Source of the DNA: an uncultured Clostridia bacterium
GTDB lineage: Bacteria; Bacillota; Clostridia; Oscillospirales; Acutalibacteraceae
Direction of reading: 5' to 3'
NCBI GenBank assembly: GCA_944384705.1
Contig: CALWUI010000012.1
Span: forward strand, 62,001-126,000
DNA length: 64,000 nt
In this document: in pieces, positions 6,393-47,491 of the stretch
Layout: each line of letters opens with the position of its first letter
Position numbering within the stretch: the stretch's first letter is position 1
The notes under the pieces: model-generated
What the model was told of the DNA's origin: nothing
Databases searched by the model: none
Seen by the model: only the letters and a program-made list of their open reading frames with translations
Program-made: the position numbers and the translations under genes

Positions 6393-6426
6393 ATCCTCCT
6401 CCCCACAACTGTATTCAATTAACCAT

Positions 6427-6460
6427 ATTATCTTCTATGCTGTTTATTTTTTTTGTCGCA
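6427..6460 (-). promoter_or_regulatory. spoIIGA: possible Spo0A-activated promoter of spoIIGA-sigE
   Basis: On the minus strand a GATAAT -10-like element (6432-6427) has no good -35. A 6-of-7 match to the Spo0A box TGTCGAA (TGTCGCA, plus strand 6454-6460) sits where the -35 region would be. In Bacillus the spoIIG promoter is activated by Spo0A bound at this position. The match is imperfect, so this is a hypothesis. Confidence 0.3.
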
Positions 6461-6573
6461 ATATAGTAATAAGAAAAAGGCACAGCAATAAATTTTGCCA
6501 ATAAAATTCCCCTTTTTTCTCTTGAATACATACTAATCTTAGTACTAAATCTATTTATAGTGAGGTGAGTTTT

Positions 6574-6708
6574 ATGTCTTTGATTTTTTGTGATAATGAC
6601 TGTGTTTATCAAAAAGACGGATATTGCGTTTTAGAAACTCCTACAATTGTAAGCAAAGACCAAAATCAATGCGAAAATTGTGCACATTATAAAAAATCGT
6701 ATGTATAA
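6574..6708 (+). CDS. small cysteine-rich protein, DUF1540-like
   Basis: A 44-residue gene with start ATG seven bases after GAGGTG and a stop directly abutting the convergent plsC stop. The product contains five cysteines (C6, C10, C18, C33, C36) in a C-x3-C-x7-C ... C-x2-C pattern around a DGYC motif. This resembles the short Cys-rich DUF1540-type proteins of Clostridia, which are often wrongly annotated as hydroxymyristoyl-ACP dehydratase. Metal binding is likely from the cysteine spacing, but the function is unknown. The ribosome-binding site, lack of alternative frames and Cys spacing support a real gene. Confidence 0.75.
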   Translation: MSLIFCDNDCVYQKDGYCVLETPTIVSKDQNQCENCAHYKKSYV

Positions 6709-36914: not shown

Positions 36915-37202
36915 TTATTTAACTTCGATATATTGCACAGAAAGATCCTGTAGTATATCTAAAAAGTTACCTGCACCAATACTATTTTCATACATAAAAA
37001 GCAGTATGTTTTTAGCTTCTAGTTCATTAATATTTTTGCATAAACATTTTATATGATAATTATCTTGCGCTTGTATATGTAAAATATTTAAAAAGATGTC
37101 GTTCACTAGCACGTCTGCAAAATAAATTACTTCATGTTCATCTTGTATTTTTTCAATTTTAGAATAGTTTTTTACGTATTTACATATTTGAACTCTTTTC
37201 AT
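36915..37202 (-). CDS. hypothetical protein, 95 residues
   Basis: I do not recognise this gene with confidence. The ATG at 37202 has AGGAG eight bases upstream, supporting translation. The product is a small, soluble, mixed alpha/beta protein without signal peptide: an N-terminal basic segment, two predicted strands around residues 22-45, then helices ending NFLDILQDLSVQYIEVK. The overall plan loosely recalls short clostridial DUF6514 proteins, but the similarity is weak. It is convergent with tadA (5-bp gap) and its 5' side faces a 443-bp non-coding interval. Confidence 0.55.
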   Translation of the reverse strand: MKRVQICKYVKNYSKIEKIQDEHEVIYFADVLVNDIFLNILHIQAQDNYHIKCLCKNINELEAKNILLFMYENSIGAGNFLDILQDLSVQYIEVK

Positions 37203-37267
37203 GATTAATTCTCCTTGCACAAAATAAATTTACTCTCTAAAGTATAATTAAAGTTGAACTTGTTTTC

Positions 37268-37274
37268 TGTCGAA
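37268..37274 (+). promoter_or_regulatory. exact Spo0A-box heptamer
   Basis: TGTCGAA lies 15 bp upstream of the -35 element at 37290. A heptamer of this composition is expected several times by chance in 64 kb of both strands, so its position next to a good promoter is the only support. Confidence 0.25.
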
Positions 37275-37289
37275 GTTTTTAGAGTCTCG

Positions 37290-37318
37290 TTGACTTTATA
37301 AAAAAAATATATTAAAAT
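37290..37318 (+). promoter_or_regulatory. sigma-A type promoter in the 37.2-37.6 kb intergenic interval
   Basis: TTGACT (37290-37295) and TAAAAT (37313-37318), each 5 of 6 to consensus, with a 17-bp spacer. Transcription would begin near 37325, with no gene until 37646 and an intrinsic terminator at 37548. Confidence 0.55.
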
Positions 37319-37457
37319 AATTTATGTATATTTCTGTAAATAAGCCAAATAAAAATATTTTGATTTGCTTTTTGAAAATATATTTTTTTTGAGCATGGAG
37401 CAGGATTTGTGAGTTAATATATTATAGTAGTATGTTTTTGTTTGGCACCCTTTCTGA

Positions 37458-37485
37458 TTATAAAATAATTATAATTATTTTATAA
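37458..37485. repeat. 28-bp perfect palindrome, all A/T
   Basis: Every base from 37458 pairs with its partner up to 37485, giving uninterrupted two-fold symmetry. It lies 161 bp upstream of the XRE gene and inside the predicted transcript. It could be a dimeric repressor operator or an RNA hairpin with a 12-bp stem. Confidence 0.6.
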
Positions 37486-37547
37486 AAATTTTACTACGGA
37501 TTCCAAAATATGTCAGCTAATTTAAAGATACACTTTATTTATTTTTT

Positions 37548-37580
37548 GGGGGTCATTATGACTCCCTATTTTTTATATTT
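37548..37580 (+). terminator. intrinsic terminator upstream of the XRE gene
   Basis: GGGGGTCA pairs with TGACTCCC (37548-37566, one G-T wobble, loop TTA) and is followed by TATTTTTT. It lies 66 bp before the ATG of the XRE gene, so it either ends an independent RNA or attenuates the regulator. Confidence 0.7.
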
Positions 37581-37645
37581 TTAGTTAGAAATTTTTTACT
37601 TTATTTTTTGTTTATTTGGATAATTATTTTTCGGTGGTGTAAAAA

Positions 37646-38266
37646 ATGTTTGAAAATGAATCTAGAATAGATCGAGTTAAACGGTTTTCTAAAATTTGGT
37701 GGAAGTCCAGGGCTGATGCAGGCAAATCGCAAGAATTTATGGCGCTTGGTATCGGTGTTTCAAGAAAAACCATACAGAATTGGGAAAAAGGCCTCAGCTC
37801 ACCAAGTTTTTTTCAGGCAACTGAATGGTTTCGTCTTTTGGGAATTAGCCCTAGAAAATATTTTCTCGAGTTTTTGTACCCAAATCTTTTTGCTGTAAAA
37901 AATTCAGATGGTGAAACAAGGTTAGACGAAATCCTTATAAATATGATAAAAAATTTTAGTGTTGTCGAAAAAGAGCAGCTTATCTATCTTATGACAGGCA
38001 ATCATGGCAGTTCTTGGCTTGCACTTCTACAGTTATTTTCTATATACTGTCAAATATCTTTTCAATCAAGAGCAACTATTGCTAGAAGTATATTAGAAAA
38101 TTATGAAATAGAAAAAATAACCGAAAAACTTATTAATCCAAATAAAACTAAAATAGATTTGGATATGTTAGAGGCAGCAATTTTGCAATGTAAGGCTGCT
38201 GCCAAGAACAAAGATTCAGGATATTCAACCATTAATTATGAGAATAATAATATTGACATTTTTTAA
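37646..38266 (+). CDS. XRE-family helix-turn-helix regulator
   Basis: A 206-residue protein with an N-terminal Cro/CI-type HTH (about residues 24-75: GKSQEFMALGIGVSRKTIQNWEKGLSSPS). A helical C-terminal region of unknown fold follows (EKEQLIYLMTGNHGSSWLALLQLFSIYCQ). I recall similar proteins in Ruminococcaceae, with the N-terminal RIDRVKRFSKIWWKSRADAGKSQEF highly conserved (25 residues, described here by its start IDRVKRF and end KSQEF). Target genes are unknown. The start ATG follows GGTGGTGTAAAAA, a weak ribosome-binding site. The palindrome upstream is a plausible operator. Confidence 0.8.
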   Translation: MFENESRIDRVKRFSKIWWKSRADAGKSQEFMALGIGVSRKTIQNWEKGLSSPSFFQATEWFRLLGISPRKYFLEFLYPNLFAVKNSDGETRLDEILINMIKNFSVVEKEQLIYLMTGNHGSSWLALLQLFSIYCQISFQSRATIARSILENYEIEKITEKLINPNKTKIDLDMLEAAILQCKAAAKNKDSGYSTINYENNNIDIF

Positions 38267-46948: not shown

Positions 46949-46966
46949 GATATTCCTCCCAGATAA

Positions 46967-47197
46967 TTAATTGGCAATATGCATTATAGTACCAAGAAGT
47001 TTAGTCAAACCAAAATCTAAAGCACCCACAAATATTGCACTAATAATAATTGACGATAATACAACACCAGTATTTTTAAAAGTGGATTTAACTGTTGGCC
47101 AAACTATCTTTTTTAGTTCATTTTTACAATCAATAAAAAAGCTGCCTATTTTTTGAAAAATATTTATTTTTGCATCAGTATTTTTCTTTTTTGCCAT
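46967..47197 (-). CDS. secE: preprotein translocase subunit SecE
   Basis: A 76-residue single-helix SecE. FFIDCKNELKKIVWPTVKSTFKNTGVVLSSIIISAIFVGALDFGLTKLL contains the conserved amphipathic W-P motif (KKIVWPT) and the transmembrane helix (about residues 43-65). It stabilises SecY in the translocon. It lies between rpmG and nusG. Confidence 0.94.
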   Translation of the reverse strand: MAKKKNTDAKINIFQKIGSFFIDCKNELKKIVWPTVKSTFKNTGVVLSSIIISAIFVGALDFGLTKLLGTIMHIAN

Positions 47198-47221
47198 AGT
47201 TTTTATCCCTTCCCGTCCAAA

Positions 47222-47371
47222 TTATTTTGTTTCTTTATGCACAGTATGCTTTTTGCAAAACCTACAGTATTTATTCATTTCTAATCTGTCAGGATCACTT
47301 TTTTTATTTTTCATAGTATTATAATTACGCTGTTTGCACTCAGTGCAGGCTAATGTAACTTTTACTCGCAT
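47222..47371 (-). CDS. rpmG: 50S ribosomal protein L33
   Basis: A 49-residue protein starting [19 protein letters not shown] and ending KHTVHKETK. Two CxxC pairs (C9/C12 and C36/C39) form a zinc ribbon, marking it as the C+ form of L33. GGGAGGTG lies five bases before ATG. It heads rpmG-secE-nusG-rplK-rplA, as in many Firmicutes. Confidence 0.95.
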
Positions 47372-47433
47372 GGCGGCACCTCCCGGAACGTCGGAATTTT
47401 TTAGCCTCCCTCTAAAGGATACAAAAATAAAGC

Positions 47434-47445
47434 CCTCTTAAGAGG
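47434..47445 (-). terminator. small palindromic hairpin in the rpmG leader
   Basis: CCTCTTAAGAGG is a perfect 12-base palindrome; on the minus strand it is followed by GCTTTATTTTTG. It lies just after the rpmG promoter and 45 bp after the stop of the upstream gene, so it may end that gene's transcript or act as an attenuator. Confidence 0.35.
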
Positions 47446-47452
47446 TGTATAT

Positions 47453-47482
47453 ACTATACCACATAAAGCAACTCTTAGTCAA
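47453..47482 (-). promoter_or_regulatory. rpmG: promoter of the rpmG operon
   Basis: Minus strand TTGACT (47482-47477) and TATAGT (47458-47453) with an 18-bp spacer, between the stop of the upstream gene and rpmG. Confidence 0.6.
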
Positions 47483-47491
47483 GCAATTTTG

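Follow-up and report, generated by a model that had tools for sequence, protein, structure and literature searches.

What does a long gene-free interval do in a compact bacterial genome when it separates two divergent genes and carries both promoter-like and terminator-like elements? We asked this of positions 37203-37645 of the window, the whole 64,000-nt stretch of DNA that was analysed, which comes from a 1.09 Mb genome (30 contigs, 99.5% complete). The interval lies between a leftward 95-aa gene with its ATG at 37202 and a rightward gene, here called xre, whose 206-aa product starts at an ATG at 37646 (Table 1). A sequence-only reading had proposed that it gives rise to a discrete RNA or acts as a terminator-controlled leader. 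The promoter and hairpin on which that proposal drew are both kept in a related genome, but the evidence from distant XRE homologues points to DNA sites more than to RNA, and we judge it fairly probable that the interval is a divergent promoter-operator region shared by a DUF6514-like gene and an autoregulated XRE gene.

Table 1. Features in and beside the interval, in window coordinates
Feature	Positions	Strand	Basis or comment
95-aa DUF6514-like protein gene	36915-37202	-	ORF; ATG at 37202, AAGGAG ribosome site
TGTCGAA, exact Spo0A-box heptamer	37268-37274	+	Conserved; any role inferred
Sigma-A-type promoter-like site, TTGACT-17-TAAAAT	37290-37318	+	Sequence scan; kept in G002
28-bp perfect AT palindrome	37458-37485		Not conserved in G002
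Divergent promoter (predicted), CTGACA-17-TAAAAT	37516-37488	-	Reads toward DUF6514-like gene; predicted start near 37481
O1, XRE operator-like palindrome with intrinsic-terminator shape, T-tract next	37548-37566	+	Homologue-trained motif; hairpin energy
O2, operator-like site	37584-37600	+	35 bp from O1; overlaps -35 of proposed xre promoter
Proposed xre promoter, TTTACT-18-GATAAT	37595-37624	+	9/12, weak; spacer 19 in G002
O3, operator-like site	37617-37633	+	33 bp from O2; overlaps -10; second-best site upstream of xre
xre ribosome-binding site, GGTGGTG	37633-37639	+	Sequence; conserved in G002
XRE-family regulator, 206 aa, HTH_3 and all-helical C-terminal half	37646-38266	+	Pfam HTH_3, 6.5e-9

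Setting and conservation of the interval

The entire arrangement is present and syntenic in G002, a genome of the same genus and the single relative that has the interval; in the third genome of the genus, G001, we found neither the XRE gene nor the interval, and no match to the promoter-terminator arrangement. Identity between the window and G002 intervals is 90%, against 68% at fourfold-degenerate sites (5441 sites in the aligned 60 kb), which indicates that the interval is under constraint. Judged from these alignments, the constraint is like that in most gaps of this compact genome, where other alignable intergenic gaps of at least 100 bp range in identity from 0.63 to 0.93, but the interval is longer. 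The sequence-only reading was right to place a conserved non-coding regulatory region here, and slightly off in calling it the only gene-free stretch above 300 bp: by ORFs of at least 90 aa, two others exceed that length, at 6393-6708 (316 bp) and at 46949-47491 (543 bp, with two short ORFs resembling secE and rpmG). The interval itself contains no ORF of at least 60 aa, and two shorter frames picked out by eye were rejected as hidden genes, a 24-codon minus-strand frame because an indel in G002 breaks it and a five-codon ATG frame near 37396 because it is without a ribosome site.

The best-conserved 400 bp in the 58.6 kb aligned to G002 lie at 36915-37325, covering the leftward gene and its 5′ side; they are 95.5% identical overall and at 15 of 16 fourfold sites, compared with the 68% average, and either recombination or extra constraint could account for this. 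The reported near-consensus promoter at 37290-37318 is indeed present, and G002 has the identical -35 and spacer length with TAGAAT as the -10. Promoter-like sites number 13 in the scan against 8.9 +/- 3.5 in shuffles, so this promoter alone is not significant, and its conservation is not specific evidence because it sits in the window's most conserved 400-bp neighbourhood. The exact heptamer upstream of it was also confirmed and is identical in G002; TGTCGAA occurs three times across the window with 4.5 expected, hence shows no enrichment, and no other copies of the heptamer block were found in the genus, all three genomes of which encode spo0A. As for the 28-bp palindrome, it is perfect as described and the longest in the 64 kb, but G002 has lost it through indels and substitutions (it is missing from that genome's palindrome list), and we rejected it as a conserved element.

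Palindromic sites upstream of the regulator gene

The XRE protein, whose structure model has a pLDDT of 83.9, belongs to a family that appears uncharacterised. A pattern scan confirmed by tblastn located about 20 full-length homologue loci, 36-83% identical and scattered over Clostridia and other gut genomes; in an even sample of the class, 2 of 391 genomes carry the family, one of them being this genome. A scan of viral contigs found no relative of the protein, and defence-system models returned a weak HTH match only.

To derive a binding motif independently of the locus, we took the 260-bp upstream regions of 18 homologues as the training set and left out both the window and G002. Motif discovery by EM yielded a 17-bp palindrome, GgGaAAATaATTTtCcC, with a score of 73, compared with 30-35 for shuffled sets; the corresponding contrast at the same loci was 69 for xre upstreams and 29-41 for the upstreams of other genes, and the same palindrome emerged (GaGAAAtAaTTTTCgCc) when symmetry was not imposed. 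Nine homologues (L043, L044, L049, L050, L051, L052, L053, L054 and L056) have a second site at a distance of 32-36 bp, while a clear second site is missing in L046, L047, L048, L057, L058, L059 and L061. By this comparison, a conserved palindromic motif stands upstream of the regulator gene across the homologues.

When the motif was applied to the 260 bp upstream of xre in the window, the top site was 37549-37565, inside the supposed terminator, with partners at +35 and then a further +33 bp. The motif thus recurs at the expected place and spacing with moderate strength: the score of the O1-O2 pair was equalled in 3 of 500 shuffles and that of the best G002 pair in 2 of 500, the score of O1 as a single site was modest (equalled in 20 of 500), and the O1-O2-O3 triple tied for the top among spaced triples in the 64 kb. 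Across the full 64 kb, motif scores were too unspecific to be useful for finding a regulon. The O1 core in the window is GTCATTATGAC and differs from that of the homologues, GAAATAATTTC, despite nearly identical recognition helices.

These results change how the GC-rich terminator reported at the same place is to be read. Its hairpin and T-tract are real, with an 8-bp stem (5 GC, -11.0 kcal/mol) followed by TATTTTTTAT; all 8 pairs are kept in G002 with two stem-preserving changes (-9.0 kcal/mol), the T-tract is there as well, and terminator-like sites in the scan are commoner than chance (3 versus 0.4 +/- 0.6 in shuffles). The element coincides, however, with the first of the operator-like palindromes spaced by about 34 bp. 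O1 forms a strong hairpin with a T-tract only in this genus, where no other copies of its sequence were found, and folds weakly in most homologues, so the feature that is shared is the DNA palindrome and not the terminator.

The predicted divergent promoter and its gene

On the opposite side of O1, the minus-strand promoter has identical hexamers and spacing in G002. Its pattern, CTGACA-N16..18-TANNNT, recurs on the minus strand upstream of xre in 6 of 18 homologues (L043, L044, L045, L049, L050 and L056), as against a mean of 0.04 loci and a maximum of 1 in 500 shuffled sets, and never on the opposite strand. The 95-aa protein that it would serve is 94% identical in G002. It has no Pfam match itself and aligns to two members that match DUF6514 (PF20124), genus paralogues matching that family at 7e-9. 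Homologues of the protein are also divergent from xre in L050 (2e-12) and L044 (9e-6), two loci whose gene surroundings differ, and therefore the pairing of the two genes and the promoter-operator layout recur in unrelated surroundings. The papers searched contained no mention of DUF6514, and the partner of xre appears uncharacterised.

Several further observations concern the leftward gene. In L043 and L049 the gene beside xre resembles, by eye, a short Spo0A C-terminal-like protein and not DUF6514, which suggests that the divergent promoter may have changed partners. Of 148 related genomes, 79 carry DUF6514, a far wider spread than that of the XRE family, and one DUF6514 paralogue (L071, G000:C27:50929-51201) has no xre in the surrounding 3 kb. 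A terminator-like hairpin on the minus strand at 36864-36845, in the 3′ end of tadA, is well placed to end a leftward transcript of the DUF6514-like gene.

From the recurrence of motif, spacing, promoter and gene pairing, we infer XRE binding, autoregulation, its direction and the transcripts. XRE dimers would probably occupy the palindromes O1, O2 and O3 (37548-37633), whose spacing of about 34 bp corresponds to three helical turns, and thereby regulate the gene's own promoter at 37595-37624. The simplest outcome would be negative autoregulation: with the -35 under O2 and the -10 under O3, repression is the most likely effect. The proposed promoter is a poor match to consensus; L047 and L048 have better ones in the same place after O1 (TTGACA-17-TACACT and TTGACA-17-TAAACT). 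The minus promoter at 37516-37488, just beyond O1, would drive leftward transcription to the DUF6514-like gene with roughly 280 nt of leader, and its activity may depend on whether O1 is occupied. Given its GC-rich stem and T-tract in this genus, O1 may in addition terminate rightward transcription that starts at 37290 and in this way shield xre from it; the 37290 promoter itself is left unexplained by the divergent operator model.

Could the rightward elements instead define an RNA? A separate small RNA, about 245 nt long, running from the 37290 promoter to the hairpin at 37548-37566 and overlapping the leftward leader in antisense, would account for the kept promoter, the stem-preserving changes in the terminator, its stem (-11.0 and -9.0 kcal/mol) and T-tract in both genomes, and the 90% identity of the interval. 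A two-sequence consensus fold of the window and G002 is also better than 193 of 200 column-shuffled alignments (7 of 200 were as stable); the terminator hairpin stands out most clearly in this fold. Against this, the plain fold of 37325-37575 is of ordinary stability (z -1.4, with -0.9 for the opposite strand), its main stem, GCCAAAUAAAAA with UUUUUGUUUGGC, is disrupted in G002, where the palindrome is lost too, and no counterpart promoter-terminator pair was recognised upstream of the distant xre homologues. A covariance search of the interval against Rfam, as the sequence-only reading had advised, gave no match, either with gathering cutoffs or with the E value relaxed to 10, and we accordingly rejected any Rfam family for it; 6S RNA and SRP RNA, which one might suspect from the position beside tadA, are encoded on other contigs. 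We regard a small RNA as rather unlikely. If it were combined with the operator, such that O1 is an XRE site and also ends, as an intrinsic terminator, an antisense or leader RNA from 37290, the result would in our estimate be unlikely as well.

A long xre leader from 37290 with conditional termination at 37548-37566 would make use of the order of promoter, leader, terminator, ribosome site and gene on one strand, which G002 repeats. Attenuation nonetheless seems improbable to us: the fold shows no evident antiterminator alternative, Rfam offers no leader, a promoter candidate lies downstream of the terminator, and the homologues do not in general share a terminator-shaped O1, their O1 hairpins being mostly weak. 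We consider it very improbable that the interval serves mainly the DUF6514-like gene, as its promoter and leader under Spo0A control, with incidental rightward elements. The heptamer is exact and conserved, the genome encodes Spo0A, and the top-conserved 400 bp include this side, but TGTCGAA shows no window-wide enrichment, inspection by eye revealed no 0A box in the corresponding intervals of L044 and L050, and the general minus promoter is located elsewhere (37516-37488).

Relation to known regulators

A divergent promoter-operator region is a familiar, ordinary kind of local biology, and two groups of regulators offer the nearest parallels. In lambda CI-type arrays, several regulator sites of 17-19 bp lie between divergent promoters; several predicted regulator sites are likewise found between divergent promoters here, although no phage genes were recognised in the immediate neighbourhood, where Pfam identifies tadA, pyruvate kinase, a VanY-type peptidase and a member of the methionine gamma-lyase family. 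C-protein controllers (C.BclI, C.Esp1396I, C.Kpn2I) autoregulate from palindromic sites. They provide the closest PDB folds to the XRE HTH domain (Foldseek top hits 2b5a and 1y7y, both weak), and they resemble the present locus in having palindromic sites by their own promoter and a divergent arrangement. Unlike these proteins of about 80 aa, the XRE protein is 206 aa long and its C-terminal half is large and helical, a Pfam search of adjacent genes found no restriction-modification genes directly beside xre, and the predicted XRE sites differ from C-protein operators in lying about 34 bp apart. A C-protein controller of a restriction-modification system was ruled out by the length of the protein and its neighbours. 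C.Kpn2I works as an elongation roadblock, from a site within its own transcribed region (PMC6237814). Compared with sRNAs and terminator-controlled leaders that end at intrinsic terminators, the interval is alike in having a promoter-like site and then a terminator on one strand, and different in that the conserved RNA structure seen is confined to the terminator, which overlaps an operator motif.

For this locus, a testable operator model replaces a plausible small-RNA call. It offers a motif that an XRE family of Clostridia, apparently uncharacterised so far, is predicted to bind, and it connects this family with DUF6514-like proteins. If O1 were truly dual, protein binding and RNA termination would take place at one spot between two divergent genes. 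In an AT-rich genome, a GC-rich palindrome followed by a T-tract may be an operator and not a terminator alone.
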